Virus record (IMG/VR): IMGVR_UViG_3300046817_000931
Location: 1 to 22,224 of that record
DNA: 22,224 nucleotides
Source of the DNA: a virus
Direction: 5' to 3' (one strand)
Shown: piece by piece, positions 4,423 through 22,224 of the stretch
How the letters are laid out: every line of letters starts with the position of its first letter
How positions within the stretch are numbered: the first letter of the stretch is position 1
Position numbers and translations under genes: made by a program
Notes under the pieces: generated by a model
What the model was told of the DNA's origin: nothing
The model's database searches: none
The model's input: the letters and a program-made list of their open reading frames with translations, nothing else

Positions 4423-4872
4423 CTATGCGCCGCCTTCTTTCAGCCACGCAACCGCCGCGGCTGTTTCGTCAGGGAATAGCTCCCCAAATTCCTCAACCAA
4501 GCCACGGATGATCCGCTCCGCCGTGGCCAGCCGTACCGCGGCATCGGCACGCGCGCGGGCGGGCGGGATCACTAACCGGGTCTGAGTCGCCACCGGGGCC
4601 TCGCTGGTAAGCGAAAGCGGCGGCGCGGTATATGGGACGGCGCGCGGCGTTACCGCGTCGAGGGCGCCCGTGGCGCGCGCGGTGTACCAATCCCGATAGC
4701 GAGCTTCCGCCAGCGCAGCGCCGGCCAACTCGCCGGCGGCATCCTCTATCGCCGCGGCCGTCATCGCGCGCCGCGTCTCCGAACCGTCGCCGAACAACGG
4801 GAACCGCTGCGGCGCGGCCATCGCGCGCGTGTGCGACGCGCGGGCCGTCGCGAGCCAACGGCCGCCGGTCAT
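4423..4872 (-). CDS. Ala-rich hypothetical protein (149 aa)
   Basis: The ATG at 4872 overlaps the stop of the 256-aa upstream gene as ATGA. The protein is Ala/Arg-rich. It has a helical middle (ETRRAMTAAAIEDAAGELAG), a Pro/Thr-rich linker (TPRAVPYTAPPLSLTS, about residues 74-89), and a helical C-terminus with an acidic EEFGELFPDE stretch. The linker between two helical parts suggests two domains. It is probably co-expressed with the second AAA+ cassette. Function unknown. Confidence 0.65.
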   Translation of the reverse strand: MTGGRWLATARASHTRAMAAPQRFPLFGDGSETRRAMTAAAIEDAAGELAGAALAEARYRDWYTARATGALDAVTPRAVPYTAPPLSLTSEAPVATQTRLVIPPARARADAAVRLATAERIIRGLVEEFGELFPDETAAAVAWLKEGGA

Positions 4873-5639
4873 TGCCGAACCTCCCGCAGCTTGGCTATCT
4901 GTTCATTCACCCATGCGACGGGCTGGTCTATCATCGGATCGGAAGCCCGCGCAGCGCCGATTACCAAATCCGCCGTGGCGCGAAGCGCGTCATCGGCCGC
5001 CGGCGCGAAACTCAGTCCGCACCGCTTCCGGCCGAAATGATGGTGGCGCGACAGGTTGTAGCAAAGGCGGCGCGCAAATCCTGCCGATGTCAGTGCATAG
5101 GCGGCCGTTGCCAAGTCTAGCGGTTGCGTGTTGATCGCCGCGACGATAACCGACTCGGCATCGTCATCGGCAACCGCGCAATACACGCTCAATTCAACCT
5201 GCCGGATGCGCGACAGTGCGATTACCAATGCCAGCACCGCGCAACCGCGGCGCATGAGCGTATCGGCATCTAGTGTCATGCTCGCCGCGACGGAGCACAA
5301 AATCCGCACCGGCGATTCGTCGTGTTCCACGGTATCGCGGCGGCGCATGCAATCCGGCATGCCGGCCAAAAAATCCGGAACTACCGCATAGGCGCCGGCG
5401 CAGTCGGCAATCCATGGCCGCTCAGAAACGTCTATCTCGGCGCTGATCTGAGACAGCAACCGTTCGGCATCGGCAACGCGCGACGGATCGCCATTGATTG
5501 CCTTCGCGATGCTCTCGGCTGCTGTCTCATGCCCAAAATAGGCGCCGCCCAAGCCCGACAGCGACAAGTGGAACGGATTGACCGCTTGCGCGTCGCGCGC
5601 CAGCGATGCAACCGAGGGATAGCGCTTTATCTGTTCCAT
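4869..5639 (-). CDS. Phage protein paired with AAA+ ATPase (DUF7192-like)
   Basis: A 256-aa protein downstream of the second AAA+ gene; the GGGAGG Shine-Dalgarno lies in the 12-nt gap before the ATG at 5639. The arrangement PWIADCAGAYAVVPDFLAG, then MPDCMRRR, then a hydrophobic strand (VRILCSVAASM), then a helix with ...RRGCAVLALVIALSR, then PLDLATAAYALTSAGFARRL, matches a phage family that I recall as DUF7192; the family name is from memory and uncertain. The alternating strands and helices resemble a Rossmann or VWA-like fold, which would be a natural client for a MoxR-type ATPase, but no MIDAS motif (DxSxS) is visible. Inferred role: substrate or partner of the AAA+ protein. Confidence 0.7.
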   Translation of the reverse strand: MEQIKRYPSVASLARDAQAVNPFHLSLSGLGGAYFGHETAAESIAKAINGDPSRVADAERLLSQISAEIDVSERPWIADCAGAYAVVPDFLAGMPDCMRRRDTVEHDESPVRILCSVAASMTLDADTLMRRGCAVLALVIALSRIRQVELSVYCAVADDDAESVIVAAINTQPLDLATAAYALTSAGFARRLCYNLSRHHHFGRKRCGLSFAPAADDALRATADLVIGAARASDPMIDQPVAWVNEQIAKLREVRQ

Positions 5640-5651
5640 GTTGCGCCCTCC

Positions 5652-6899
5652 CTACGCTACCGCTTGCCACTGGTCAGCGCTCATGCCTTTGCGCAGCGCC
5701 ATGGCGATTACCGTGTCGCGGTCCAGACCAGCGGCCAACAGCGCCGCGCCCTGATAGGATGCACGCGGCGAGATCAGGGCGCGCGCGATGCCGTGTTCAT
5801 TGACGCGGCGCCGAACCGCTTGCACGTAACCGCACCAATCCGTGTTGGGGCAGGTCGCGGTTTCCAGCGATTCGTCAATTTCCCAAGCGATCGGCACAAA
5901 GCGGTCCAAAAACGAAATGTCGAGTTTCGCGCGGCCCGTGTATTGATCGGTCGCGCCATGGCCGAACGTGTTCGCTGCTGCGAGAATCACGCAATCGGGA
6001 TGCCGGTCAACTGAGCCATCCGGAAAATCGCAATGCCCGTTCGATGTCGCGGCGTTGAACGCCAGCAGGGCGCCCGGTAGGCTCGCGTCAAGCTCGTCAA
6101 ACAGATAAACGCCACCATGCTCGTACGCATGCCGAAACGGCCGCGACACGATACGACCCTGCGCATCCGTAAAGCCCAGCAGTTTGTATTCGTTGTCGAT
6201 GGCGCCATTGAAATAGAACGGCAAACCCAGCGCTTTCGATACCATTTCGGCTGCGGTCGTCTTGCCGCTGCCGGCCGTGCCTACCAGCAACACGTTAAGC
6301 CGGTTCCCGGCATGGTCGCGCGCCGCGCATGCTCGCAGCAGCGTTTCGAATTGCCGATGCTGCGTTCCGATGTTGCGCCGCTCCCCCGTCTCGGGAACCG
6401 TCACCACGATTTCATGCTGCCGCGGCTTGGGCGCATGCTCACGGATCAATTCGATTACGCGCGCTTCATTGATCGCGCCGGCGGCAAGGGTCTGTATCAG
6501 CGCGGCAAGCTGCGCCGCGGCATCGCCGGGCGCCGCTGCTATCGCGGGAACCGTTGTCGCTGGCGTGGCCGCAGGAAGCGGCGCGGTATATTCCTGCGCC
6601 GACAGCATAGCATCGCTATGCGCCGGCATCGCGGCCGCCAGCATGTCGCCGGCTTCCTCGCTCGATGCCGGCAACGCCACGCCATCCCGCAAATGCGACA
6701 GCACGGCCGCGAAATACTTTTCGCGATTGTAGCACTTCCAAAGCGTGGCCAGCTTCATTGCCTTCGCGCGTGCACTCGGCACGCCATTGGCAACCAGCCA
6801 GTTCTGCACCAAGCCGCGGTTTGCGGTCGTGACAGCCGTGGCGCCGCGCGGCCCGATCTGGGCCTCTAATTCGGCGGCATCGTATGACGCTACTCGCAT
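5652..6899 (-). CDS. AAA+ ATPase (MoxR/CbbQ-like), second copy
   Basis: A 415-aa protein. Residues 1-160 form an N-terminal extension that includes an Ala/Pro-rich linker (about 100-135). The AAA+ core follows: Walker A GTAGSGKT (207-214), Walker B VYLFDE (264-269), sensor 1 in AAANTFGHG (N310), and a probable arginine finger R333 in FLDRF. It differs from the MoxR protein at 2230-3249 in size and in its long N-terminus, so it is not a recent duplicate. The start at 6899 follows GGAGG with normal spacing, 3 nt after the previous stop. It probably remodels the downstream 256-aa partner. A/T-ending codons seem commoner here than in the 1297-3249 cassette, which hints at separate acquisition. 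Confidence 0.88.
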   Translation of the reverse strand: MRVASYDAAELEAQIGPRGATAVTTANRGLVQNWLVANGVPSARAKAMKLATLWKCYNREKYFAAVLSHLRDGVALPASSEEAGDMLAAAMPAHSDAMLSAQEYTAPLPAATPATTVPAIAAAPGDAAAQLAALIQTLAAGAINEARVIELIREHAPKPRQHEIVVTVPETGERRNIGTQHRQFETLLRACAARDHAGNRLNVLLVGTAGSGKTTAAEMVSKALGLPFYFNGAIDNEYKLLGFTDAQGRIVSRPFRHAYEHGGVYLFDELDASLPGALLAFNAATSNGHCDFPDGSVDRHPDCVILAAANTFGHGATDQYTGRAKLDISFLDRFVPIAWEIDESLETATCPNTDWCGYVQAVRRRVNEHGIARALISPRASYQGAALLAAGLDRDTVIAMALRKGMSADQWQAVA

Positions 6900-8681: not shown

Positions 8682-8986
8682 CGTGGCTCGCCCTCGCACG
8701 AGGCATGGTCGCGCAGGCCACCGCTAAGGACGCCGCACCCTTGACGCACGCATTTTCGCGGCATGGCCGGGTAATCGAGAGCCGTCAGGATGGGATCGGG
8801 GTTAGGCACCCAATCATGGTCGCGGTGCAGCCGGTAGCCGCGCTCGGCGATGGCGGCGAGGATGGCGTCGGCCGCAGCCCGCGCCATTTCATCGTCAACG
8901 TCGTCTTGCCACGTATAGCGGCGGGCTTCATTAGCGGCATATTGGAGCACGCCGGCGAAAACCTCGCGCCAGTCCGGGGCGCTCAT
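8678..8986 (-). CDS. Hypothetical protein (102 aa)
   Basis: MSAPDWREVFAGVLQYAANEARRYTW... begins with an acidic helical domain (DDVDDEMARAAADAILAAIAERGY, about residues 29-52), followed by HRDHDWVPNPDP and a C-terminal part with three Cys (KCVRQGCGVLSGG, HASCEG). The Cys/His content hints at a small metal site, unproven. Both ends overlap neighbours by 4 bp, which fixes the start at 8986 rather than 9097. The early-type position and small size fit an accessory phage gene. Confidence 0.65.
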   Translation of the reverse strand: MSAPDWREVFAGVLQYAANEARRYTWQDDVDDEMARAAADAILAAIAERGYRLHRDHDWVPNPDPILTALDYPAMPRKCVRQGCGVLSGGLRDHASCEGEPR

Positions 8987-10574: not shown

Positions 10575-10738
10575 ACTGGTCGAAATTCCCGAAGCCGTGG
10601 AATCGGCTCGGACCGGCGCTCCAGACGGCGCTTCGGCGGGACGTGACCATGATCGTCGCGGACCGACCGCCGGCGCCGCCGCCACCACTGCCGGGTCGCT
10701 GGTTCGCTGACATCCGATATCCGACCCGCTTCACCTGA
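10559..10738 (+). CDS. Small hypothetical protein (59 aa)
   Basis: The frame MGHEVDWSKFPKPWNRLGPALQ... continues to a proline run (PPAPPPPLPGRWF) and ends RYPTRFT. Its start overlaps the end of the previous gene by 16 bp. Its TGA shares one base with the TerL ATG (TGATG), a classic termination-reinitiation junction, so it probably couples translation to the terminase. Function unknown. Confidence 0.55.
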   Translation: MGHEVDWSKFPKPWNRLGPALQTALRRDVTMIVADRPPAPPPPLPGRWFADIRYPTRFT

Positions 10739-12693
10739 TGGCCGTCTCCACCCTCCGCCAGCACGACAAGCTGAACCGGCTGGCGCGCCGTCAGCACTGG
10801 CTCGGGCCGTTCCTCAAATTCATCGACTCGATCCGCATCGACTCGAAGGAGGTTCCGGCCGAGGACGAGCGCGGGTCGAAGCTGCACCTGTGGACGACGC
10901 AGCGGCTTTTCCTTGAGCAGCTTGCCGAGGGGCTGGACCGGGGCCAACACACCTTCCTCACGCTGAAAGGCCGCCAACAGGGCCTCTCGACGATAACGCT
11001 GGCGGTGCTGCTGTTTTGGGTGGCGGTGCACCCGCGCTCGATCGCGGCGCTGGTCTGCAACGAGGAAAAGGTGCGCGACGCCTTTCGCGACCTGCTGAAG
11101 CGCTATCACGAGAGCTTCCCGCCTGAGTTCTTCGGCGACGCCTTCGCGAAGGTGCGGCACAACTCGTCGCACTTCCTGTTCACCAACGGCTCCCGCATCG
11201 ACTACCTGATCGCCGGCACCCGGAAGAAGAATTGGGGTGAGTCGCGCGGCTACAGCGCGTGCCTCTGCACCGAGGTTGCGGCCTACGGCGAGGAAGACGG
11301 CATCAACAACTTTATCGAAGCGCTCGCGCAGGAAAACCCTGACCGGCTGTTCATGTTCGAGTCCACAGCGAAGGGTCCGAACCACTGGCAGGAAATGTGG
11401 AACGACGCCGAGCGCGACGAGGAAAACACCTGTCGCATCTTCCTCGGGTGGTGGGCCAAAGACCTGAACCGCATCCGTAAAAACCAGCCGCATTACCAGA
11501 AATACGCCGGCGCCCTCAGTGGCGAGGAAACCGAGCTTTGCAACGAAGTGCTGGAGCGCTACGGCCACGTCGTCACGATGGAGCAACTGGCGTGGTGGCG
11601 GTACAAGCTGGCGACCAGCGACCGGCAGAGCGCCGAACAGAACCAGCCGTGGACGCCCGAGCAAGCCTTCGTCCTAAGCGGCTACAGCTTCTTCGCGACC
11701 CGGCTCCTGCAAGAGCAGTACGAGCGCGTCTATCACAAGCCCTTCAAGGCGTACCGCATCTACATCGGCACGTCGTTCTGGACGATGCGCGTCGAGCAGG
11801 TCGAGGCCAGCAGCGACGCGGAATTGAAGATTTGGGAAGACCCTGTGCGGGAGGCGCAATATGTCATCGGCTGCGACCCGGCCTACGGGCATTCCGACGA
11901 CAGCGATTCTCATTGCGTTTCCATCTGGCGTTGTTATGCCGACCGTCTCGTGCAGGTTGCCGAATATACGGATAATCGACCTGAGACAAAGCATTGCGCC
12001 TGGGTGCTGTGCGGTCTCGCTGGAGCTTATCGGAACTCCATCATCAATCTTGAGCTTTACGGCCCCGGCCGGACGGTGATGAACGAAATCGACAATGTTC
12101 GCATCCAACTCCAGGCCGATATGTATAAGGCCGCGCGGGACGACAAGGAGTGGGACGAGGATTTCATGGCCGGGGTGCGGTGGTTCCAGTTCCGCCGCAA
12201 CGACAACCCCGGTTCGGCCGGCTTCATCTACAATTTCGAGACGAGTTCCAAATCCAAGATGATGCTGTTCAATGGCTTTCGCGACGCCTTCACGTCGAAC
12301 ATGCTGGACATCAACTCGGCGCGCTGCATCGAGGAAATGAACAACATGGTGCAAGAAAAGGGCGACATCGCGCCCGCGGCGCCCGGCCGGCAGCACGACG
12401 ACCGGCCGTTCGCGGCGGCGCTCGCGCATTTCGCCTGGGATAGCGTCGCCTGCGGCGCGCTGCGCGGCTCGATGATCGCCGCCGGCATGACCTTCGAGCG
12501 GGTGTCGGCGGCCGAGCGCGGCGAGAACGTCGGCGGGCAAGCGATCGTCGATAAGCTGGTCTACTCCTACTTCGCCCGCGCCGAGGCGGAAGCCGAAGAA
12601 CGGGAAGCGGCTGGGCCGTGGGCGCACGAGGACAACCCGGACCCGTTCCTGTTGTCGGCGGCGGGCTGGCGAGCGCGGCGGGGGCTGGCATGA
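10738..12693 (+). CDS. terL: Terminase large subunit (packaging ATPase and nuclease)
   Basis: A 651-aa two-domain packaging motor. The ATPase has an adenine/Q-type region (LWTTQRLFLEQL, 51-62), a Walker A of the terminase form KGRQQGLST (77-85), a Walker B-like ACLCTEVA with catalytic E179, and a coupling motif ESTAKG (208-213). The nuclease (RNase H-like) shows CDPAYG with D380, an acidic E439 in NLELYGPG, and a third acidic site at D554/D555 in HDDRPFAAA. All expected catalytic residues are present, so it should be active. It cuts concatemers and pumps DNA into the prohead through the portal. The ATG overlaps the previous stop by one base. Codons between about 11880 and 12070 end in A/T more often than elsewhere in the gene. 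Confidence 0.95.
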   Translation: MAVSTLRQHDKLNRLARRQHWLGPFLKFIDSIRIDSKEVPAEDERGSKLHLWTTQRLFLEQLAEGLDRGQHTFLTLKGRQQGLSTITLAVLLFWVAVHPRSIAALVCNEEKVRDAFRDLLKRYHESFPPEFFGDAFAKVRHNSSHFLFTNGSRIDYLIAGTRKKNWGESRGYSACLCTEVAAYGEEDGINNFIEALAQENPDRLFMFESTAKGPNHWQEMWNDAERDEENTCRIFLGWWAKDLNRIRKNQPHYQKYAGALSGEETELCNEVLERYGHVVTMEQLAWWRYKLATSDRQSAEQNQPWTPEQAFVLSGYSFFATRLLQEQYERVYHKPFKAYRIYIGTSFWTMRVEQVEASSDAELKIWEDPVREAQYVIGCDPAYGHSDDSDSHCVSIWRCYADRLVQVAEYTDNRPETKHCAWVLCGLAGAYRNSIINLELYGPGRTVMNEIDNVRIQLQADMYKAARDDKEWDEDFMAGVRWFQFRRNDNPGSAGFIYNFETSSKSKMMLFNGFRDAFTSNMLDINSARCIEEMNNMVQEKGDIAPAAPGRQHDDRPFAAALAHFAWDSVACGALRGSMIAAGMTFERVSAAERGENVGGQAIVDKLVYSYFARAEAEAEEREAAGPWAHEDNPDPFLLSAAGWRARRGLA

Positions 12694-12965: not shown

Positions 12966-13201
12966 TGGATTTCCTCGCCGCCTCGGCGGTGGTGATCCGG
13001 CATTTCGAGTCGCGGGCCGGGCTGCACCCGTCCTATACCGAGACGATGAACATGGCGCTCCAGCAGGGGCTACCGCTCGGCGGGCAGGCGATCCCGGTAG
13101 ACTGGTACGCTTATCTGCGCGACGGCCCGACTTTCGCGCATCTGCCGATGCGGCGGGACTTCAACCGGCCGCGGCTACTGGTGGGGTTTGAGGATGGCTG
13201 A
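12962..13201 (+). CDS. Hypothetical protein (79 aa)
   Basis: MMDFLAASAVVIRHFESRAGLH... contains the pattern TETMNMALQQGLPLGG followed by DWYAYLRDGPTFAHLPMRRD. Two ATGs (12962, 12965) are available; the first gives the ATGA overlap with the previous gene. The C-terminal end overlaps the next gene by 8 bp. It is probably a small structural or accessory protein of the head region; unknown. Confidence 0.6.
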   Translation: MMDFLAASAVVIRHFESRAGLHPSYTETMNMALQQGLPLGGQAIPVDWYAYLRDGPTFAHLPMRRDFNRPRLLVGFEDG

Positions 13202-13400
13202 CCCCAAAAATAACGATGATCGCGCCCGCGCCCGCGCAGAACTAAACATTCGGTGGTTGCGGAGCGGCGCATCCGAACTTGAGGCGAATATGCGGATGCT
13301 CGCAGAGTTGGGGAATTTCCGAGAACGAACCGCCGCTCGTAATTGGTTGCTCGCCAACGCCGCGGCACAGGAGAAACAAGACAATGCCGATCACGGTTGA
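13194..13400 (+). CDS. Small helical protein (68 aa)
   Basis: MADPKNNDDRARARAELNIRWLRSGASELEANMRMLAELGN... ending AAAQEKQDNADHG is a charged, mostly helical protein. Start 13194 is used (13188 also possible) and overlaps the end of the preceding gene by 8 bp. Its own end overlaps the lysozyme-domain gene by 17 bp. Less GC-biased than its neighbours. Function unknown. Confidence 0.55.
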   Translation: MADPKNNDDRARARAELNIRWLRSGASELEANMRMLAELGNFRERTAARNWLLANAAAQEKQDNADHG

Positions 13401-14361
13401 CGGCGAGACCTATCCGGACGTGGGGGCGTGGAACCGCGCGATGGATGCGCGCGCCGTGCAGAGCGAGGGCGCTAATCTGCCGAGTGCCGCTGCCAATGTC
13501 ATGTCGCCACCAGCGAGTGCCCCCGCCGCTGGAGTGGTCGCGTCCGCTAACGAAATGTCGCCGATGGCGCCGGGGAATCTGTCTCTCAGCCCCGATCTAT
13601 TCTCGTCTCCGTTCGCCGCCACGGCGCCGGGTGCCGGAAGCGCGCCGGCAGCGACCGCGACCCCAGGCGCCGGTCACGCGCTGGAAGTTCCCGGCTATCA
13701 AAGTCGGGGCGATTGGCTGGATACGGTCGTCATGCCGCGGGAGAGTCGTGGGCGTCCGAACATCGGGTGGGGCGAAACCGACCTGACGCCGTACCTCGCC
13801 GCCGGCAAGACGGTGTACGGGTTCCCTGATTGGCCCGGCAAGCCCGGCCCCGCTGGCAATAGCACCGCCGCCGGTCTCTATCAAATCACCAAGACGAATT
13901 GGCTCCATTACGCGCCGCTTCTCGGGGTCAATGACTTTTCGCCCGAATCGCAACGCAAGGTCGCGGAAGCCGTGCTGCGGGACCAAGGGCCGCGGGCGTG
14001 GGCCGCGTCCGGGCCAGTGCCCGGCCGCATTGGCGGGCGATTCGGCTCGCTCGACGCCGCGATGGCGCCGATGCAACTCGCCGCCGCCGAGCCGGTCGAT
14101 CCGACGAAGCGGATGGATCAGGTCCGGCCCGCGCAAGACTTGAACATCGGTATCTCGGCGCCCTCGGCCGGCACGCCGTTCCAAGACATGCTGAAGCGCG
14201 GCGGCGGCGCGGCGATCCCGCTGGTGCCGGGGCCGGGCCGCGGCGGCGCGTTGCAGCCGGTCCCGATATCGCCGGCGCCGAACCTATACAAAGGCTATCA
14301 GGACGCGCTCGCCTCGATCCTCAACGGCCAGCGCCGCGGCTTCGGGAGTATTTTCGGATGA
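13384..14361 (+). CDS. Lambda-type lysozyme-domain protein, probably virion-associated (325 aa)
   Basis: An N-terminal 100 residues rich in Ala, Pro and Ser precede a domain that follows lambda R endolysin: a catalytic Glu candidate in MPRESRG (E120), the segment STAAGLYQITKTNW (160-173, compare STGAGRYQ in lambda), and GVNDFSPESQRKV (181-193, compare LKDFSPKSQ). A Gly/Pro-rich C-terminal tail ends GSIFG. The enzyme would cleave peptidoglycan glycan strands as a transglycosylase or muramidase. The long low-complexity extensions and head-gene position suggest a virion-borne enzyme for genome entry, not the lysis enzyme; that is inference. The start is supported by AGGAG about 10 nt upstream. 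Confidence 0.8.
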   Translation: MPITVDGETYPDVGAWNRAMDARAVQSEGANLPSAAANVMSPPASAPAAGVVASANEMSPMAPGNLSLSPDLFSSPFAATAPGAGSAPAATATPGAGHALEVPGYQSRGDWLDTVVMPRESRGRPNIGWGETDLTPYLAAGKTVYGFPDWPGKPGPAGNSTAAGLYQITKTNWLHYAPLLGVNDFSPESQRKVAEAVLRDQGPRAWAASGPVPGRIGGRFGSLDAAMAPMQLAAAEPVDPTKRMDQVRPAQDLNIGISAPSAGTPFQDMLKRGGGAAIPLVPGPGRGGALQPVPISPAPNLYKGYQDALASILNGQRRGFGSIFG

Positions 14362-14549
14362 GGCGGTCCCGCCGCCGGCCGGACAGCGAGCCGCGCATGT
14401 ATATGCACGACATTCGCATGGGCGGGGCGATTATCTCGATCACCTGCGAGGGATCGGCCTGTGAGCTATGCGCCGCCGATCCGGCCGCCGCGAAACGCGC
14501 GAACAACCAGCACTTTCCGCACGAACTTGGCGAGGAGCCGCCGGCATGA
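14358..14549 (+). CDS. Small Cys-containing protein (63 aa)
   Basis: Starts within the stop of the lysozyme-domain gene (ATGA) and ends overlapping the next start by 4 bp. A basic N-terminus (MRRSRRRPDSEPR) is followed by a strand-like GGAIISITCEGSACELCAADP with three closely spaced Cys (CEGSACELC), which could bind metal. An internal start at 14397 would remove the basic tail. It lies between two lysozyme genes; no known role. Confidence 0.55.
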   Translation: MRRSRRRPDSEPRMYMHDIRMGGAIISITCEGSACELCAADPAAAKRANNQHFPHELGEEPPA

Positions 14550-15100
14550 CGGTCAAATTCAAAGACACCGACCCCTGCACGGACATCATCCTCGATTTCA
14601 TTGCCGGCGGGCTGTGGGGCGACAAGCTCGGCAACCCCATCGGCGAGTCGAACGGCAACTACAACGCCTTTTTCGGGCACCCGTCCTCGACGCGCGATTT
14701 CAGCCCCTACACGCTGGATTACATCTATGCCTTCCAGGGCGGGATGCTGAAAACCGACCCGCGCTCGACGGCGCTCGGGCGATACCAGTTTTTGCGGAAG
14801 ACGCTGAAGGCGCTGCAAGGCAAGCACGCGCTGCCCGGCTCGACGCTGTTCACGCCGGAATTGCAGGACGGGTTCGCCGTCGATCTGCTGGTGGGCCGCA
14901 GCTACAAGGCGTGGTGGCGCGGCGCCATCACCGACGCCGAGTTCGCGGTGAACCTCAGCCTGGAATGGGCTTCCCTGCCCGACCCCGACAATGCCGGCCG
15001 CTCGGCCTATGACGGCGATGTGGCCGGCAACCACGCGAGCACGACGCTCGGCCACGTCTACGACATGCTGGAGCGCGCTCGCGCCGCTCAGAAAAAATGA
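14546..15100 (+). CDS. Endolysin, lambda-type lysozyme (184 aa)
   Basis: A compact single-domain lysozyme. The likely catalytic Glu is E34 in PIGESNGNYNAFFG, followed by STALGRYQFLRKTLKAL (74-90) and LFTPELQDGFA (101-111), which match the lysozyme/endolysin pattern (SAAGRYQ, LFTPxLQD). The C-terminal block LSLEWASLPDPDNAGRSAYDGD is also family-typical. No signal peptide, so release to the periplasm would need a holin. None is certain here: no obvious holin lies beside it, though tiny membrane proteins are encoded at 4051 and 8983. Coupled by 4-bp overlaps on both sides. It may degrade the cell wall at lysis. Confidence 0.88.
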   Translation: MTVKFKDTDPCTDIILDFIAGGLWGDKLGNPIGESNGNYNAFFGHPSSTRDFSPYTLDYIYAFQGGMLKTDPRSTALGRYQFLRKTLKALQGKHALPGSTLFTPELQDGFAVDLLVGRSYKAWWRGAITDAEFAVNLSLEWASLPDPDNAGRSAYDGDVAGNHASTTLGHVYDMLERARAAQKK

Positions 15101-15363
15101 AGCGTGCGACCGACGCGGCTAAATGGGACGGGTCAAGGCGCATGGACCTGCGCGAGCGGGAGTTCGAAAAGGCTCCCGTCGAAACGTTGCTCACAATGGC
15201 GAGGGTCGCTGGGACGCCGATAGCGCACATATCTCGAATAACGCGAAGGTGGCGGAACCGCAGTTATACACGATGGCTTGCGATCCCGCTTAACGATGAG
15301 CACGCGGCTATCTGGTCGCCGGAAGCCGGCATAAAGGTGGTGCCGCTGCGGGTGGTTTGGTGA
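15097..15363 (+). CDS. Basic hypothetical protein (88 aa)
   Basis: MKRATDAAKWDGSRRMDLREREF... to VVPLRVVW, basic, with two helical segments and a short VETLLTMARVAG. The start overlaps the endolysin stop by ATGA. The codons (for example ata, aca, gca, cgt) are less GC-biased than in the endolysin gene, as in other small genes of this stretch, so it may be a late insertion. Role unknown. Confidence 0.55.
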   Translation: MKRATDAAKWDGSRRMDLREREFEKAPVETLLTMARVAGTPIAHISRITRRWRNRSYTRWLAIPLNDEHAAIWSPEAGIKVVPLRVVW

Positions 15364-15974
15364 TCCGCCGACTGATCCTGTGCGGCCCGTACACCCCGGA
15401 GGAAGCCCGCGCGGCGACGGCGATGGCGGGAAAGATGGTCGGCGGTAGCGGCGAGGAAATCGTCTACCGGGCCGCGCCGACCGAGCGCCGCATCGTGATG
15501 TTCCAATCGGGCACCATCTCGTTCCACTCGACCGGGCATCGCCGCGGCTTTGCGCGGATTCTCGACGATCCTACCGCGCAATCTCTGGCCGTGGTCAACG
15601 CGGCGGTGATCAAGGGCGAACCGGTCATCAACGTCTACACTGGCCTGGAGCGTGACGGCGAGATATACGCCTATTCAGGAACCGATGCGGTTCTGACGTT
15701 CGGCTTTCCGGACGGGGCCGGCGTGGCCTATTTCCATCGGAGCGCTGGCGGGGTAGCGCCGGGGGTCGCGGCACAATGCCTCTGGTTCGTCCATGGGGCG
15801 AGAAGCTCGCCGGTGTTTATGCCGCAAATGCGGGAACTGCTGGCCCTGCGTGACGGCGTGCGGTTCTCGTTCGTCAAACGCAAACCCTTCGGCTGGCAAG
15901 CCGGGCGGCAACTGGCAATCGAGCACGCGCGCTCGGTGCTCGCCGCATCTCTGGAGAGGTTCGGGCTGACTTAG
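15360..15974 (+). CDS. Hypothetical protein (204 aa), last gene of the rightward operon
   Basis: Begins at GTG 15360 (GTGA overlap with the previous stop; a TTG at 15357 is the alternative). It has a well-folded look: VIRRLILCGPYTPEEA, repeated strand pairs (ERRIVMFQSGTISFHS, PVINVYTGLERDGEIYAYSG, AVLTFGFPDGAGVAYFHRS), and a helical C-terminus (GRQLAIEHARSVLAASLERFG). I do not recognise the family. Its TAG overlaps the TAA of the convergent portal gene by 3 bp (shared TTAG), with no terminator between them. Confidence 0.7.
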   Translation: MIRRLILCGPYTPEEARAATAMAGKMVGGSGEEIVYRAAPTERRIVMFQSGTISFHSTGHRRGFARILDDPTAQSLAVVNAAVIKGEPVINVYTGLERDGEIYAYSGTDAVLTFGFPDGAGVAYFHRSAGGVAPGVAAQCLWFVHGARSSPVFMPQMRELLALRDGVRFSFVKRKPFGWQAGRQLAIEHARSVLAASLERFGLT

Positions 15975-17818
15975 TGCGCGGCGGAGCGGGACGGCTTCTT
16001 GCCGGTGAGCGCCGCGATCCGCGCATCCGGCGGCAACGACTCGATCATCGCCGCCTTGTTCGCATCGCGGGTCTCGATGTCGGCGATGATCGCCTCGGCC
16101 TGCGGCGGGTTCAGCAGCCGCACCAAATCCTCCGCCGTGATCGCGCCTCGCGATGCCAGCAGCATCGCCACTTCGCGCGCTTCCTTGCCGAAGATCGGCG
16201 ACGACGAATGGCTGTCCACCGAAACGCGATAGCGATCATCGACGTGGTGCATCTGGAACGGTAGTGCCGTCAGGCCGGGCGCCGGCGGTTCGTACACCAG
16301 CGGGTCAAGCTCGCTGCCCTTGAACGGACCCGATTCGGACTGCTTGATCCAAAGCACATGCTGGCTCGGGTCGTAGGCCCGCATCAGATCGAGCGACAGC
16401 CCGCCGAGTTCTTCGATCTGCCGCTCCAGCGTGATTGCGCGATCCTTGAACCGCGGCGAGGCCATGCGCACCAGCGTCTCGGCGTGGCCTTGCGCTCGCA
16501 CCCCCGATTCGCCCTGCCCCTGCAACACCGCCGGATAGCCGCCGGTGTCGTCGAACATGCCGATCAGTTCGTGCAAACTCTCCCACAGCCCGGCCGGCAG
16601 GTCCGGCGTCATCTTCTCGACTTTGACCGCGCCGCCTTGCTCGGTGTGGTAGCCGCCCGGCCGGCGCAGCGTCGCTTTCATCTTCGACGCGGTGGAGGTC
16701 GCGCCGGTGATCAGCCATGACGGGTCTTCCTGCCGCCGCAGCAGCCGGTTGATCCCGTCCACCCGGTTGTTGATCGCGTCCTGAAGCGCCTGGACGACGT
16801 AAACCTCCGACAGCCCCCAAAAATAGTCGGGGACGGGGTTCGGGCAGATTTCGATAAACGGGTGATGGCCGCTCAGCGGATTGCGTTCGTCGTTGGCCGC
16901 GGCCCGCCGGATGCGGCGTGCCCGCTGTGGCGCCGGGTTGCCGTCCGCGAACAGGTTGCGGAACTGGCCGACCGGCTCGATGACGGTGTTGCCGACGAGT
17001 TGGATCGTCACCCAATCGTCGTTGTGCCGGTCCCATACCCAAAGCTCGTCGAGCCGGATCAGCTTCGCCTCGGTGGTCGAATCGAGTTCCGGGGTTGGCG
17101 CGTTGAGCCATGACACTAGCCCGCGGCCCTGCCCGGCGCCCGCGCTGCCCGACACGCGGTAGGGGTAAAGCTGGCCGCCGATGATGACCTGCCGGCTGTT
17201 GTCGGCGGCATCGGGGCGATCCAGCTTGTCGGACGACACGTATTTCCGGATGTCGCGGATAATCTCGTCGCGGCGCGGGTTGTTCTGGATCAGGTCCGCG
17301 AACCGCGCCTCGGTGAACCACGTCGAATGCGTGAAGGCGTCTTGCAGATCGAGCCGCGGCAGGTCGTCCCGTAAGACGCCCATCGTTTCGGGCTGCACCA
17401 TGTACGCCTGAAGCCCGCGGGCATAATCCAGTTGCAGGAAGGTCTTGCCCTTCACCAGCGACCACTTCACCGCGTCAACGGCGGTGATATCGAGGTTGCC
17501 GGCGCGGAATTTCTCCAGCAGCACTTGCGAGGCGGAGCGGCCCATCGCCCGGTCTCGCGGGCCGGCCGGGCCGTAGGGCATGACGGTGAACCGAAGCTCG
17601 CTCGGCGAATACAGCATCGCCGCCAGCGTCTCGATGTAGGCGTAGGTTTTGCGATAGGTCTGCGCTTCGCCGCTGGCGGCGCCGGTCAGGTAATAGTTGC
17701 GGTATGCGGCGCCGCGCTGGCGGCGGGTCTCCAGCGATGAGTGGCACGCCTCGACGATTTCCAAGGCCCAATTCCCGAGCTTTTCGCGGGCGGTCGGGAT
17801 CGTGAGGATGGATGCCAT
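15971..17818 (-). CDS. Portal protein, on the minus strand
   Basis: A 615-aa portal (head-tail connector). The start MASILTIPTAREKLG at 17818 is set by the ATGA overlap with the upstream gene. Recognisable features are a helical clip/stem layout, ETLAAMLYSPSELRFTVMP (63-81), WGLSEVYVVQALQDAINNRVDGINRLLRRQEDPSWL (334-369), KATLRRPGGYH (381-391) and TLERQIEELGGLSLDLMRAYDP near 463-484. Portals form the dodecameric ring that terminase docks on. The oddity is orientation: terL before it and the capsid genes after it are on the plus strand, while this gene and four small partners run leftward. I am confident of the family from pattern, not from a search. Confidence 0.85.
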   Translation of the reverse strand: MASILTIPTAREKLGNWALEIVEACHSSLETRRQRGAAYRNYYLTGAASGEAQTYRKTYAYIETLAAMLYSPSELRFTVMPYGPAGPRDRAMGRSASQVLLEKFRAGNLDITAVDAVKWSLVKGKTFLQLDYARGLQAYMVQPETMGVLRDDLPRLDLQDAFTHSTWFTEARFADLIQNNPRRDEIIRDIRKYVSSDKLDRPDAADNSRQVIIGGQLYPYRVSGSAGAGQGRGLVSWLNAPTPELDSTTEAKLIRLDELWVWDRHNDDWVTIQLVGNTVIEPVGQFRNLFADGNPAPQRARRIRRAAANDERNPLSGHHPFIEICPNPVPDYFWGLSEVYVVQALQDAINNRVDGINRLLRRQEDPSWLITGATSTASKMKATLRRPGGYHTEQGGAVKVEKMTPDLPAGLWESLHELIGMFDDTGGYPAVLQGQGESGVRAQGHAETLVRMASPRFKDRAITLERQIEELGGLSLDLMRAYDPSQHVLWIKQSESGPFKGSELDPLVYEPPAPGLTALPFQMHHVDDRYRVSVDSHSSSPIFGKEAREVAMLLASRGAITAEDLVRLLNPPQAEAIIADIETRDANKAAMIESLPPDARIAALTGKKPSRSAAH

Positions 17819-18012
17819 CAGCCGAGCCAGTGGCGCGTGATGTGCGCGACCGCGTGCCAAGGGACGATCTGTTCCTCCGCGGGGCCTTCTCTGAAATAGC
17901 CGTTAGCGATTGTTGCGCGGAGCCAATCGCCGAAAGTTCCTGCGGGGATACGTATGCCGTGCGCGTCGCCGCCGAAGCGATGAATCATGATCGTTTCAGT
18001 TTCTCCGGCCAT
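17818..18012 (-). CDS. Small hypothetical protein (64 aa) upstream of portal
   Basis: MAGETETIMIHRFGGDAHGIRI..., then a Trp/Phe-containing middle and EEQIVPWHAVAHITRHWLG. It follows the zinc-ribbon gene by 3 nt, and its stop overlaps the portal start. Codons are less GC-biased than in the portal gene. It is probably co-translated with the portal; role unknown. Confidence 0.6.
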   Translation of the reverse strand: MAGETETIMIHRFGGDAHGIRIPAGTFGDWLRATIANGYFREGPAEEQIVPWHAVAHITRHWLG

Positions 18013-18015
18013 ATT

Positions 18016-18522
18016 TTACGCCGGGCCGCGCTCGGTCGCCACGGTCAGAACCGGCGGCGCCATGCGGGTGCGGTGCGCCGCGCCGATGGTCTGCGACTCG
18101 GTGCGCGGATCGCGCAGACCGCCGGCCAGCGCTGCTCGGGCATGGGCCGCCAAGTTGATCGGCATTCCGGAACCCGAGCGGCGCTGGCCCTTCGGTCCCC
18201 CACCGAAGAAGTTGTCGGCCTGCCGCTGAAGCACCGGCGGCAGCTTCGGTGCGGCGGATTCGGTCTCGCGCACGTCCGACCGCAGATCGGTCATGCCGTA
18301 ATCTTCCATGACGATTTTCGCGGTCTCGTCGATGGCCTTCACTTGGATGTTGCCGCCGATCGCCGCCGGCGCCTTGTTCAGCGTCAGGTCCATGCCAATC
18401 GGCTCGCCCTGCACGCCGCAATCGAGGTTCGGGCATGGCGGGTCGGGCCGGTCAGGATGCTTCGTGCGGTAAATCCAGCGATGGCCGCAGGTCGTGCAGC
18501 GGCATGTGACCTTAAATTGCAT
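18016..18522 (-). CDS. Zinc-ribbon protein (168 aa)
   Basis: MQFKVTCRCTTCGHRW opens a clear zinc ribbon: C9-x2-C12, then C30-x4-C35 (PPCPNLDCG). A flexible linker and a C-terminal part with a Gly-rich loop (NFFGGGPKGQRR) and helices (LAAHARAALAGG) follow. The start at 18522 overlaps the preceding stop as ATGA; longer in-frame extensions are less likely. It may act as a head-assembly adaptor or regulator; the position just before the portal is suggestive but not decisive. Confidence 0.65.
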   Translation of the reverse strand: MQFKVTCRCTTCGHRWIYRTKHPDRPDPPCPNLDCGVQGEPIGMDLTLNKAPAAIGGNIQVKAIDETAKIVMEDYGMTDLRSDVRETESAAPKLPPVLQRQADNFFGGGPKGQRRSGSGMPINLAAHARAALAGGLRDPRTESQTIGAAHRTRMAPPVLTVATERGPA

Positions 18523-18983
18523 CAGGCGGCTTCTTCCGCCTCTGCCGGCTCGCCTTCGTCCGGCTCCGGTTCCTCTGCCGGCTTCATCCACTCGGTCGGG
18601 GCCTCGGCCGGCAGCGGGACCATGCCATCGGCCGGCGCCCAGGTGCCGCCCGTAACCCAGCGGCGGTTGTTGAAGTGGCGGCCTTCGCGCCAGCGCACCA
18701 GCCGTCCCGTATCGTCGTCCGATCCCCAAAACGCGCGGAGGTAGCTGCCGTCCTGCGGCGCGGAGTGGATAGGCTCGCGGGCGGGCTGTGGCGACAATTC
18801 GGGGATATCGGACGTGTCGATGTCCTCGTCCCGGATGGCAGCAATCTCGGCAAGGCGCTCATCCGAAACCGCAGCCCGAACTACGGGAGCGGCTTCCTCC
18901 GCGCGCAACGCATCGAACGTGTCGCGTGGCTCAGGCGCGCGGTACGGGCGCGGCTTCGCGGCCGGGTGGTCGGAAGTCTTCAT
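18522..18983 (-). CDS. Hypothetical protein with BrnA-like acidic segment (153 aa)
   Basis: Starts at MKTSDHPAAK, fixed by ATGA overlap with the HTH gene. Residues 43-63 (RLAEIAAIRDEDIDTSDIPEL) resemble the N-terminal region of BrnA-type antitoxins (DEDIDTSDIPEL). A central part (DGSYLRAFWGSDDD, WREGRHFNNRRW, WAPADGMVPLPAEAPTEWMKP) looks like phage DUF551-type sequence with a terminal PTxWMxP. An acidic tail follows (EEPEPDEGEPAEAEEAA). No toxin partner (BrnT) is visible next to it. It may be a chimera of small phage modules; function unknown. Confidence 0.55.
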   Translation of the reverse strand: MKTSDHPAAKPRPYRAPEPRDTFDALRAEEAAPVVRAAVSDERLAEIAAIRDEDIDTSDIPELSPQPAREPIHSAPQDGSYLRAFWGSDDDTGRLVRWREGRHFNNRRWVTGGTWAPADGMVPLPAEAPTEWMKPAEEPEPDEGEPAEAEEAA

Positions 18984-19180
18984 GCGGCGTCCTTGCAATA
19001 AGGCGGGAGGTCAGACGACACCGCCGACATCCCGAGCAACACGATCATCGGCGGGTCTTGTTCGCCGCGATCATAGGCTTCGATGCGGCGCTTGCTATAC
19101 CCGAGACGGAGGGCTGCCTGTCGTTGCGATAGCCCGAGCGATGTTCGCCATTCTCGGAAAAGTATTGTGTGAACAGCCAT
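18980..19180 (-). CDS. Xre-type helix-turn-helix regulator (66 aa)
   Basis: The start at MAVHTILFREWRTSLGLSQRQ leaves a 66-aa protein; longer frames to 19246 carry an Arg/Ser-rich head with no signal. The HTH covers residues about 8-40: LGLSQRQAALRLGYSKRRIEAYDRGEQDPP is the canonical Xre pattern, followed by IVLLGMSAV. It is the first gene of the leftward portal operon and would bind its own promoter region (19181-19331), where two GCAATAGCG repeats lie. It may therefore control portal expression separately from the capsid operon. Confidence 0.75.
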   Translation of the reverse strand: MAVHTILFREWRTSLGLSQRQAALRLGYSKRRIEAYDRGEQDPPMIVLLGMSAVSSDLPPYCKDAA

Positions 19181-19216
19181 CTTGCCCGTCGCCGTTAGCA
19201 AAAATCGCCAGCCATC

Positions 19217-19251
19217 GCAATAGCGGCGACTACTGCATCGTAGCAATAGCG
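19217..19251 (+). promoter_or_regulatory. Two direct GCAATAGCG repeats (candidate HTH operator)
   Basis: Identical 9-mers at 19217-19225 and 19243-19251, 26 bp apart start to start (about 2.5 helical turns). They lie in the divergent 150-bp gap between the HTH gene and the plus-strand capsid operon. Flanking bases are partly shared (TCGCAATAGCG, TAGCAATAGCG). Probable operator of the HTH protein, by position. Confidence 0.4.
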
Positions 19252-19331
19252 ACAGAGAGAATACGCGCCGAAATTGTATTTAAACGGCGTGCCCCCGCCT
19301 GTGGGGGTCGCTACACAGCTTGGAGACGAAG

Positions 19332-19385
19332 ATGATCGAAATCGTCGGAAAGCGCGACCGCCGCCGCAAGCACAAGCGGAAGTAG
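19332..19385 (+). CDS. Possible basic 17-aa peptide
   Basis: ATG at 19332, with GGAG 6 nt upstream, encodes MIEIVGKRDRRRKHKRK followed by TAG. It is the first frame of the rightward capsid transcript and is almost entirely basic. A hairpin follows before the next gene. It might be a leader peptide, a small nucleic-acid binder, or not translated at all. No relative can be named. Confidence 0.35.
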   Translation: MIEIVGKRDRRRKHKRK

Positions 19386-19395
19386 TCGTAACCTG

Positions 19396-19435
19396 CGCGG
19401 GCCGGGGCTGTCCTCACACTCGCGCCGGCCCCGCG
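19396..19435 (+). other. GC-rich hairpin before the capsid operon genes
   Basis: CGCGGG (19396-19401) pairs with CCCGCG (19430-19435), and CCGG pairs with CCGG inside, leaving one bulged base. It lies between the tiny peptide and the gene at 19449. Without a T-run it is more likely a leader structure than a terminator. Confidence 0.35.
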
Positions 19436-19448
19436 TGGCTTCAACCGA

Positions 19449-19928
19449 ATGCCAGCAGACATCGCATCGCTCTTAGGGCGGCTCCCCGGCGGAATGCCGG
19501 GAGGAGCGCCGGGTGGTGCGCCTCCCGGTGCTCCAGGGGCACCCCCGCCGCCGCCGGGCATGATGCCGGCGAAGCCCAACACCGGGCCGGCGACATCGCC
19601 GCAGCCGAACGCCGGCAACGAAGCGGCAGCCATGAACAAGGTGCAACTCGCGCTCAAGACGCTGGAAGAAGCCCTTCCGCAAATCCCGATGGGCAGCGAC
19701 CTTCACCACGAAATCCTGAAGATCACGACGCAGCTTTCCAAAAAGCTCCAGCCGGGCACCGGATCGCCGGGGCTTCAGATGCAAGAGCTTCTTCAGATGG
19801 CGCGCGGCCAAGCGCAAAGCGCGCCGATGCAAGCCCTCGCCCGCATGCAGGCACCGGCCGACGCGCCGCCAGCCATGCCGGGCGGCGGCGCCCCCGGCGG
19901 CGGCCCGCCGATGCCGATGGCCGCTTAA
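19449..19928 (+). CDS. Gly/Pro/Met-rich structural-region protein (159 aa)
   Basis: The N-terminal 55 residues are Gly/Pro/Ala/Met-rich (LPGGMPGGAPGGAPPGAPG and more). A helical core (MNKVQLALKTLEEALPQ, then GSDLHHEILKITTQLSKKL, about 61-100) contains a conserved-looking amphipathic pattern. A Gly/Pro-rich tail ends MPMAA. Such proteins are often encoded immediately before scaffold and capsid genes in phages and may help prohead assembly. The start has little Shine-Dalgarno; inner ATGs are possible. Function inferred from position. Confidence 0.7.
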   Translation: MPADIASLLGRLPGGMPGGAPGGAPPGAPGAPPPPPGMMPAKPNTGPATSPQPNAGNEAAAMNKVQLALKTLEEALPQIPMGSDLHHEILKITTQLSKKLQPGTGSPGLQMQELLQMARGQAQSAPMQALARMQAPADAPPAMPGGGAPGGGPPMPMAA

Positions 19929-19940
19929 CAGGAGTGTGAG

Positions 19941-20117
19941 ATGGCGAGATTCCCCCGAGCCGGCCAGTCCGAGCCGAAAGCCGACGATCCGATGATGAAG
20001 CGGGTCGATCTGGATCACGGCGAAATCGGCTCCCGCCCGTCCGGAATGCCGAAGTCGATGGACGATGAGCGCATGAAGCTCTCGCACGTCGGCGGGTCCG
20101 GAAAGCAGGGCAGCTAA
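19941..20117 (+). CDS. Small basic/polar protein (58 aa) near the head genes
   Basis: Bases 19941-20117 encode MARFPRAGQSEPKADDPMMK... to HVGGSGKQGS. The ATG has an AGGAG at normal spacing. The composition (Pro, Ser, Asp, Lys, Met) and lack of clear hydrophobic core suggest a flexible peptide. It lies between the Gly/Pro-rich protein and the scaffold-like gene. Role unknown; possibly a minor head component. Confidence 0.65.
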   Translation: MARFPRAGQSEPKADDPMMKRVDLDHGEIGSRPSGMPKSMDDERMKLSHVGGSGKQGS

Positions 20118-20120
20118 GCC

Positions 20121-20735
20121 ATGTCGGACGATCTTCAGGTTCCGGCCGGCTACAAGCTGGTCAAGGACACCGACCTGAGCACGCTTCAGGCGTCCTACAA
20201 GCTGCTCAACGACTTGTGGGATCACCCCGAGCACGGCGCCACCACCAAGCGCGCCGCGAAATCGGTCAACCCGGCCCTGCGCGTCCCCGAAATCGACGTG
20301 GCCGAGCCGCTGCTGAAGCCGATCAACGAAAAGCTCTCCGCCTTCGAGGAGGAGAACAAGAAGCTCCGCGAGGAGCTTGAAGCCGACAAAAAATCCCGCG
20401 AGGACGACAAGGCGCTTGGCGACCTGCAATCGAAGCTGACTGCCGCGCAGAAAAAGCACCGCCTCACCGACGAGGCGATGGGCGAGGTCAAGAAGATCAT
20501 GGCCGAACGCGGCGTGGCCGATCCCGATATCGCCGCGCAGTACGTCGTCGCCAACATCGAGCCGGCGAAGCCCGTCCGCGGCAGCAATTTCGGCCCGCAG
20601 GAGGCCAACATCTTCGGCATCGACGGCAACTCGACCGAAGACGACACGAAGCTGCTCCACAATAATAACCAGAAATGGTTTGACGGAACAGTGGACGAAA
20701 TTATGGCTGAGTTTGAACGGCAAGACGCCGCCTAG
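20121..20735 (+). CDS. Scaffold-like protein (204 aa)
   Basis: Residues 63-114 form a strong coiled coil (KLSAFEEENKKLREELEADKK and beyond), typical of phage scaffolds. A compact helical region follows (TDEAMGEVKKIMAERG), then a C-terminal segment (FGPQEANIFGIDGN, DTKLLHNNNQKWFDGTVDEIMAEFERQ). Its place just before the capsid gene, with a 28-bp gap, fits. It would organise capsid assembly and later leave. The last 25 codons use far more A/T (aat aat aac, gaa att atg), which suggests a recombination joint. Called from shape and position. Confidence 0.75.
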   Translation: MSDDLQVPAGYKLVKDTDLSTLQASYKLLNDLWDHPEHGATTKRAAKSVNPALRVPEIDVAEPLLKPINEKLSAFEEENKKLREELEADKKSREDDKALGDLQSKLTAAQKKHRLTDEAMGEVKKIMAERGVADPDIAAQYVVANIEPAKPVRGSNFGPQEANIFGIDGNSTEDDTKLLHNNNQKWFDGTVDEIMAEFERQDAA

Positions 20736-20763
20736 CCCCGGCTGAATAGAGGAGGCAAGAACC

Positions 20764-21831
20764 GTGGCGTATCCTTCGACCTTTCAAGCTCCAGCAACTG
20801 TCGGTGGGCTAACCCCCGGCGGCCAACTTGGCGCACAGTTGGCCGCGATCACCCGCCGGGCGGTTATCCCCTCGGTGTTCGTCCAGATTTACCAGTCGCA
20901 CCCGCTGCTGAGCCTGCTGTGGCAGAACGCGCAGCGTGCGAAGGGCGGCGTCGGTCAGGTCGTGATCCCGACGCAGGGCGCCTCGTTCGTGTCGTTCTCG
21001 TGGGGCAGCTTCGCCGGCGACTTCCCGATGCCGGAAGACGTGGCGGCGATCCAGAACGCAACCTTCAACCTGAAGATCGGCATGGTGCCGATCGGCTTCT
21101 TCGGGTTCGAGGCGCTGGTGCAGTCGAGCGAGGTCATCATCCCGAAATTGCGGGCGGTCACGTCCGACGCGGCGGTGGTGATCAAGCAGGCATTCGCGCA
21201 GTCGTTGTATTCCAACAACTACGCCACGCCGAACGCGCTGGATTCGCTGGCGCAAGCCTACGACAACGGATCGAATGTCCCGGCCTACGGCGGCATCACC
21301 CGGTCGGGCGCCGCATGGTGGCAGGGCCAGTATCTCCCGAACCTAGCGGGGATTTCGAACCGCACCGGCATGGCGATCACGCAGACCCGCGTGGCGACCG
21401 GCGCCGGCGGCGATGCACCCGATTTCGCGGTGATGAACCCCGCCGATTGGTCAACCGTGCTGGCCGATTTCATGGGCTATGAGATGTACCAGTCTCGCCC
21501 GCGGTCGCAGTACGGCAAGGACGATCCGCAGAACGCCGGTTTCCGCGCGCTGCGGGTGCTCGACACGCCGATCTTCCCGGACCCGTTCTGTCCGCGCGGC
21601 GAGATGTACATGATCAACAGCCGGTATCTCTCGCTGTTCGTCAGCGAATACACGGCGCCGATGGTGTTTTCGGGCTTCGAAAGCGCCATCCCGCAGGGCC
21701 AGATCGCCGAAATCGGCGTGCTGATCTCGGCTCTGAACCTGATCTGCTCGAAACCGAGTTCCGGCGCGCACATTACCGGCCTGTCCGGCGCAGCGTGGCC
21801 GAACACCCCCGGCCCGCCGGCCGTCCTGTAA
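20764..21831 (+). CDS. Major capsid protein (probable)
   Basis: Starts at GTG 20764 after AGAGGAGG (spacing 7-8). The 355-aa product MAYPSTFQAPATVGGLTPGG... has the alternating hydrophobic strands typical of phage major capsid proteins of this size: SHPLLSLLWQNAQRAKGG, GQVVIPTQGASFVSFSWGSFAGD, an extended FNLKIGMVPIGFFGFEALVQSSEVIIPKL, and later DFAVMNPADWSTVLADFMGYEMYQSR, NSRYLSLFVSEYTAPM. No protease cleavage site is evident. It forms the HK97-fold icosahedral shell with the scaffold just upstream. Assigned by context and pattern. Confidence 0.8.
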   Translation: MAYPSTFQAPATVGGLTPGGQLGAQLAAITRRAVIPSVFVQIYQSHPLLSLLWQNAQRAKGGVGQVVIPTQGASFVSFSWGSFAGDFPMPEDVAAIQNATFNLKIGMVPIGFFGFEALVQSSEVIIPKLRAVTSDAAVVIKQAFAQSLYSNNYATPNALDSLAQAYDNGSNVPAYGGITRSGAAWWQGQYLPNLAGISNRTGMAITQTRVATGAGGDAPDFAVMNPADWSTVLADFMGYEMYQSRPRSQYGKDDPQNAGFRALRVLDTPIFPDPFCPRGEMYMINSRYLSLFVSEYTAPMVFSGFESAIPQGQIAEIGVLISALNLICSKPSSGAHITGLSGAAWPNTPGPPAVL

Positions 21832-21843
21832 GGAGGAAGCGAT

Positions 21844-22224
21844 ATGCCGCTCATTTTCGGTGGGCAGGGCGTCACCCCGACCCTGCGGGGGCAGCCGTCG
21901 AACGTCTACGCCCTGCAAGCCGGCGAGGTCATGCAGATTCCGGCCGGCGGCTGGATGCTGGAACTCGGCAAATACAGCGCCTATCAGGTGTTCGACCCGA
22001 TCACCGGGATTTGGCGGCCGCTGGCGACCGGCGGCCTCAGCGGCAAGAACTTCCACGTCCAGTCGGACGGGGTGAACCACCGGATCGCCAATCAGACGGG
22101 TTGCGCGGTCGGCGCGCTGATCACCAACGCAGGCACCGGCTATACCTCGGCGCCGACCGTCACGGCGTCGGCCGGGGCGAGCGTGTGGCAGGCGGTCGTC
22201 GGCGGCGCGGTCAACACGTCGATC
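21844..22224 (+). CDS. Virion structural protein, 3' end cut by window edge
   Basis: ATG at 21844 follows a perfect AGGAGG. The frame MPLIFGGQGVTPTLRGQPSN... is open to the last base (127 codons). It is rich in Gly, Val and Thr. It shows a beta-rich pattern (GEVMQIPAGGWMLELGKY, DPITGIWRPLATGG) and a repeat-like GTGYTSAPTVTASAGASVW, a motif common in phage fibres and head-decoration proteins. It may be a decoration, head-tail or fibre protein. Because it is cut, length and C-terminal features are unknown. Confidence 0.7.
   Translation, partial: MPLIFGGQGVTPTLRGQPSNVYALQAGEVMQIPAGGWMLELGKYSAYQVFDPITGIWRPLATGGLSGKNFHVQSDGVNHRIANQTGCAVGALITNAGTGYTSAPTVTASAGASVWQAVVGGAVNTSI

Follow-up and report, generated by a model that had tools for sequence, protein, structure and literature searches.

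Recurrent changes of portal gene orientation in a family of podovirus-type phages

Tailed phages are regarded as having an almost invariable order of terminase, portal and capsid genes, on which their annotation and classification draw. The stretch of viral DNA analysed here (hereafter the window) is a contig of 22,224 bases with no end repeats, in which a candidate portal gene faces the opposite way to both the terminase and the capsid genes. This raises the questions of whether the gene is a portal, whether its reversal is real, how often such a reversal has occurred among related phages and what in the layout of the head genes might allow it.

A reversed portal unit between terminase and capsid genes

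The plus strand of the window carries the terminase large subunit gene (10738..12693; PHROG phrog_2 terminase, E 1.2e-15; 35% identity to the annotated MW202753 terminase). Between this and the portal gene lie a transglycosylase-like protein, a probable lysis or entry enzyme (13384..14361; matched to Pfam Transglycosylas at E 9.6e-5, short of the curated cut-off), an ORF with no Pfam match (14468..15100) and a final plus-strand ORF (15357..15974). From 19180 to 15971 the minus strand holds five ORFs whose starts and stops overlap or abut throughout, in an operon-like manner. These encode an Xre-type HTH protein of 66 aa, the first gene of the unit (18980..19180), an ORF named 'BrnA-like' in the preliminary description (18522..18983), a zinc-ribbon protein of 168 aa (18016..18522), a small ORF of 64 aa overlapping the portal start (17818..18012) and the portal protein itself (15971..17818). 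The portal start was taken as the ATG at 17818; a longer, TTG-started version overlaps the small ORF. At the far end of the unit, the portal gene and the final plus-strand gene converge, their stop codons (15971-15973 and 15972-15974, respectively) overlapping within 4 bp, and this junction contained no terminator-like site. On the other side, a divergent intergenic region (19181..19331) is presumed to hold promoters for both units, given the layout and the sigma70-like signals that relatives show in the corresponding gap. It leads into the plus-strand capsid operon, which begins with an unannotated polybasic micro-ORF (19332..19385, MIEIVGKRDRRRKHKRK) and, directly 3' of it, an RNA hairpin (19393..19438; −29.4 kcal/mol). 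The first full-size gene of the operon (19449..19928) and a small gene (19941..20117), both conserved in the HMM map, precede a scaffold-like coiled-coil protein, assigned by its position before the capsid gene (20121..20735; HMM map), and a podovirus-type major capsid protein (20764..21831; NCBIfam capsid_maj_Podo, E 9.1e-27, above cut-off; PHROG 9953, E 2e-21). ORF coordinates and portal identity thus agree with the preliminary description, which had placed a minus-strand portal between plus-strand terminase and scaffold/capsid genes, at the end of a five-gene unit that meets the plus-strand genes in a 4-bp stop overlap without a terminator.

Homology and predicted fold both identify the product of the minus-strand gene (15971-17818) as a podovirus-type portal. 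The 615-aa protein shared 29% identity over 91% of its length with the annotated portals of the two Manatee Spring phages MW202753 (E 3e-62) and MW202825. Its AlphaFold model (pLDDT 77) found the portals of SU10, Pan3, N4 and T7 as best solved matches in Foldseek, with SU10 at the top (E 2.5e-16), so that the structure-prediction check proposed for the portal call came out in its favour. This likeness to the SU10-type podovirus portal lies in the fold, whereas sequence identity was ~12% and the Pfam SU10_portal score was 11.4 bits, below the gathering cut-off of 30. Similarly, a PDB sequence search with the portal profile gave no match, although the fold search did.

Every sequence considered here comes from metagenome contigs, which leaves room for an assembly artefact at 15970 or 19200, the joins that the preliminary description had singled out as a possible source of error. 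However, contig L004, from another IMG sample, was 99.9% identical over window positions 13079-22224, through both junctions, and contig L005 covered the lower junction and agreed with the window. As the samples of L004 and L005 possibly belong to one project with the window, stronger evidence against an artefact comes from L022, which belongs to a 63,956-base contig from another source; its portal was 62% identical to that of the window, and its gene order and strands were the same. Dozens of relatives also carry antiparallel portals of their own. An artefact is hardly credible on this evidence, and the agreement among contigs indicates that the reversed portal is no assembly error.

Portal orientation among relatives

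Relatives were gathered by scans with the capsid, portal and terminase proteins together with alignments, giving about 200 loci. The strand of every head gene was mapped with per-gene profiles and repeated contigs were removed. Contigs were counted where the portal orientation was known relative to the capsid genes or, failing those, the terminase (n = 146). The portal was antiparallel in 77/146 and co-directional in 69/146, counts that are not frequencies, as sampling was by pattern scans and many contigs were near copies. The distant outgroups, namely the Manatee Spring phages, contigs binned with MAGs and Myxococcus phage Mx9, were all co-directional. Four layouts were distinguished. Terminase, zinc ribbon, portal and capsid share one direction in layout (a), whilst layout (b), the commonest in the ingroup, differs in that the portal alone is reversed. 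Portal and zinc ribbon are both reversed, with an HTH gene in front, in layout (c), found in the window, L004 and L022. In layout (d), seen in L058, the HTH, zinc ribbon, portal and terminase genes are all reversed against the capsid; L134 has the same order of these four genes on a contig too short to show the capsid. Some antiparallel phages, and sometimes co-directional ones, have an extra 1 to 4 kb between zinc ribbon and portal.

The tree built from four capsid-operon proteins required 5 changes of orientation, 3 of which were forced by well-supported branches, and rejected a single antiparallel clade (dlnL 352, p 1.3e-6). The terminase tree required 6 changes (4 forced) and likewise rejected a single antiparallel clade (dlnL 407, p 4.6e-5). 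The portal tree required 7 (3 forced) and the capsid protein alone 6 (2 forced). These trees were quick searches, and phage recombination could mimic some of the changes. Since both the capsid-operon and terminase trees reject one antiparallel clade, the orientation changed at least three times. The clearest case was the antiparallel pair L036/L040, nested in a well-supported co-directional group (L039, L144, L049). On these trees, portal orientation has changed several times within this family of uncultured podoviruses, a recurrence that stands whichever direction the changes took, and the usual event was a flip of the portal gene alone. The proposal that the portal unit had been inverted was thus supported and broadened, with several changes in the trees and many close relatives antiparallel. 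The layout can also be stable, since a clade of 59 portals was uniformly antiparallel.

The window belongs to a lineage in which the reversed segment is larger. Its HTH protein matched Pfam HTH_3 at 26.5 bits, above the cut-off of 23 (E 6.6e-6), and homologues at profile level head the zinc ribbon-portal unit in L022, L058 and L134. HTH, zinc ribbon and portal recur in this order in the window, L004, L022, L058 and L134, bearing out the statement that the unit is led by its own HTH gene. The expectation that all five genes would recur held for these three; the small ORF was restricted to the window and the near-identical contig in the HMM map, and the ORF at 18522-18983 had a homologue in L022 only. 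Searches of the latter against Pfam and NCBIfam at E up to 1 returned no BrnA or other family match, which leaves the BrnA-like assignment unsupported. In the zinc-ribbon protein, four Cys columns were conserved at 94–95% of aligned homologues; these two Cys pairs place it in the zinc-ribbon class, with putative metal binding. A homologue sits between terminase and portal in most relatives. The portals of the window, L022, L058 and L134 grouped with support of 99, and the capsid-operon tree joined the window, L022 and L058 with support of 94. The terminase tree had seemed to split the window from L058, a reading that was dropped when an AU test left the window, L022, L058 and L134 unrejected as one group (p 0.74). 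Because of these portal and capsid-operon groupings, the unrejected terminase grouping and the homologous HTH proteins, we regard HTH, zinc ribbon and portal as an inherited block. Among these four contigs, the terminase has also switched sides at least once. The HTH protein may regulate the reversed unit in the window lineage. Upstream of its gene, the repeat finder returned no direct-repeat family and two weak 10-nt inverted pairs only, and GCAATAGCG repeats noted there by eye are not claimed as an operator.

The same trees bear on where the reversed units came from. Phages are mosaic, and the joint recurrence of HTH, zinc ribbon and portal would suit the earlier suggestion that the unit was acquired as a cassette, imported from another phage with no inversion in place. 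Against this, the portal and capsid-operon trees both group the window with L022 and L058, which fits an in-place inversion, the terminase does not reject this group together with L134, and other flipped portals also lie near the same kin in both trees; import is accordingly disfavoured and we think it quite unlikely. Somewhat less improbable, yet still unlikely in our judgement, is that the portal inverted once, early in the ingroup, and was later turned back in some lineages, so that most of the changes were reversions. Antiparallel is the commonest ingroup layout, and parsimony counts do not tell inversion from reversion, leaving the direction of change within the ingroup uncertain. However, the inverted segments differ (portal alone, zinc ribbon and portal, or the whole packaging block), which points to separate events, and L036/L040 look derived inside their co-directional group.

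A programmed switch, in which the portal segment is turned round within the living phage by a site-specific recombinase so that both orientations coexist, would account for a family that holds both orientations and for a flipped segment that is often a single gene. An invertible segment would carry inverted repeats at both ends, but none beyond chance length bracketed the portal segment; the best window pair (15998-16025 / 18102-18129, 79% complementary) falls inside the portal and zinc-ribbon coding regions. For want of such repeats a switch is very unlikely. Furthermore, orientation was uniform in the clade of 59 portals and no near-identical pair with opposite orientation was seen. Repeated inversion in the course of evolution seems to fit the pattern better than a switch does.

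The head of the capsid operon

The capsid operon is headed by the polybasic micro-ORF and then the RNA hairpin, a feature that may matter more than the portal flip. Micro-ORFs were defined by a ribosome-binding site, a start codon and a last ten residues of which ≥70% are Lys, Arg or His. Under these strict criteria one lay immediately 5' of the first full-size gene of the capsid operon in 126/142 loci, and several of the remaining loci carry one under slightly looser criteria. Length ranged from 9 to 27 codons (median 13), the start was ATG in 98/99 distinct sequences, and two or three micro-ORFs stood in tandem at 22 loci. None occurred on the reverse strand of the same regions or in shuffles (0/426). 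Across both strands of 1.56 Mb, 150 such ORFs were on-site and 3 off-site. A DNA pattern for the HKGRKGRK-stop version matched 19 contigs in the whole IMG/VR set; the newly fetched ones were all members of the podovirus family and the others were already in our set. Changes in the micro-ORF codons were mainly at synonymous sites (pN/pS 0.29 versus 1.23 downstream) in pairs that had been chosen by peptide similarity, whilst pairs chosen by capsid identity gave 106 synonymous versus 152 non-synonymous codon differences, so any estimate of the strength of selection on the micro-ORF is provisional. The hairpin after its stop had a mean MFE of −23.6 kcal/mol, compared with −13.5 kcal/mol after other gene stops, and was followed by a T-run in only 36/126. 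The micro-ORF may serve as an attenuator leader, or it may encode a genuine peptide. A literature search of partial coverage found nothing relevant on a basic leader peptide, which is weak evidence of absence.

Micro-ORF and hairpin head the shell genes in both portal orientations, which supports the shell block as a unit of its own. In antiparallel contigs the gap from the portal start to the micro-ORF was mostly 135–200 bp, and its shell strand carried signals resembling sigma70 promoters (mean z 1.9). The signal on the portal strand was weaker (z 0.8) and modestly greater than in co-directional phages (p 0.04). In the window's own gap (19181-19331) no sigma70 match exceeded the threshold. 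Several relatives carry a GC-rich hairpin exactly between the convergent stops, which could in principle end transcription both ways.

Probable separate blocks and the order of head genes

We consider it likely that the head region is made of separate transcription blocks, that the portal could be flipped without cutting either of them and was so several times, and that the HTH protein of the window probably regulates itself and the portal supply. A packaging block would comprise terminase, small ORF, zinc ribbon and portal, and a shell block the micro-ORF with its hairpin, two small genes, scaffold and major capsid gene; we infer that the two are separate transcription units with their own promoters. 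Co-directional relatives have the portal at the end of the packaging block, and since the shell block brings a leader of its own, the portal could be reversed with both blocks left intact. Whichever way the portal points, the shell operon apparently forms a unit by itself, which probably permits such flips. After a flip, the gap between the back-to-back portal and shell block would supply the promoter for the portal, which would converge tail-to-tail on the packaging block. The reversed block of the window lineage also includes the zinc ribbon and is headed by the Xre-type HTH gene, whose product probably acts on its own promoter and so on the supply of portal. Separate regulation of portal dosage from the shell is plausible, given the promoter-like signals in the divergent gap of relatives, and a flip may bring some benefit for portal dosage. 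More tentatively, and with rather less than even confidence, we suggest that portal orientation is labile and possibly selected, and that an autonomous shell operon is headed by a previously unannotated micro-gene in one to three copies with a hairpin, which would act as a leader for capsid transcription that senses ribosomes or, alternatively, as a small peptide that binds nucleic acid and is produced in larger amounts than the capsid protein.

Known systems share parts of this layout. A portal divergent from the capsid is well known in P2-type phages, where operon P-Q (terminase, portal) is divergent from O-N (scaffold, capsid; PMC3091744). The window likewise has its portal opposite scaffold and capsid, back to back. 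However, the P2 type keeps terminase and portal co-directional, whereas in the window the terminase is on the plus and the portal on the minus strand. Only L058, with terminase and portal together divergent from capsid, resembles P2 in this respect; the portal of the window, like that of most antiparallel relatives, opposes terminase and capsid alike. The capsid and portal families also differ, being of myovirus type in P2 and podovirus type here. The Manatee Spring phages MW202753 and MW202825 have homologous terminase, portal, scaffold-region and capsid genes in identical order, and their capsid operon is likewise preceded by polybasic micro-ORFs (a tandem pair in MW202825), but their portal points the same way as terminase and capsid. 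A distantly related capsid protein (26–27% identity) occurs in Myxococcus phages Mx8 and Mx9; of these, Mx9 was examined and has its terminase, portal and capsid genes on one strand. A literature search, again of partial coverage, found no description of a portal turned against terminase and capsid repeatedly in one family.

The repeated portal flips show that a near-fixed gene order of tailed viruses can break and still persist. Strand-based operon calls and orientation-based quality filters can mislead. Finally, repeated flips of the portal alone would provide natural replicates on the purpose of this order, be it the portal-to-capsid ratio, timing or limits set by recombination.

Polybasic micro-ORF at the head of the capsid operon

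The plus-strand capsid operon of the window is headed by a polybasic micro-ORF (19332-19385, +), followed on its 3' side by a hairpin (19393-19438, +). Among 142 related loci, at least 126 conserve this micro-ORF at the corresponding position, where it is 9-27 codons long (for example, MARRHKGRGKRK), is present in one to three tandem copies, and has a ribosome-binding site and a downstream hairpin. It is unannotated, and may either encode a genuine micro-protein or serve as a leader peptide.

A tRNA-like sequence was observed between the portal and the micro-ORF of L061, a related uncultured podovirus contig, upstream of the micro-ORF and within ~400 bases before position 8703. Judged by eye, this is apparently a candidate tRNA-Arg (TCT); the neighbouring micro-ORF uses AGA codons.

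Capsid-like motifs and minus-strand ATPase genes

A stretch resembling the N-terminal motif of the capsid protein (ITRRAFLPSAMVQIYRTHPVLQAI) was also found in three short non-capsid ORFs of related contigs (L022:3718-4227, +; L142:14386-14823, -; L098:412-750, +), two of which have an RRSFLRG- or RRGFLAG-type start. At a distance from the structural genes, the window encodes two AAA-type ATPases on the minus strand (2230-3249 and 5652-6899) near a DUF7192 protein (4869-5639).

Junction of the zinc ribbon and portal genes

In five related contigs (L006, L010, L076, L077 and L175), a compact hairpin, e.g. AAGGGGCttcgGCCCCTT, lies exactly between the convergent stop codons of the four-Cys zinc ribbon gene and the reversed portal gene. 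Runs of A and T border it on either side, the T/A run being contributed by the portal's Lys-rich C-terminus. This hairpin could act as a bidirectional transcription terminator.
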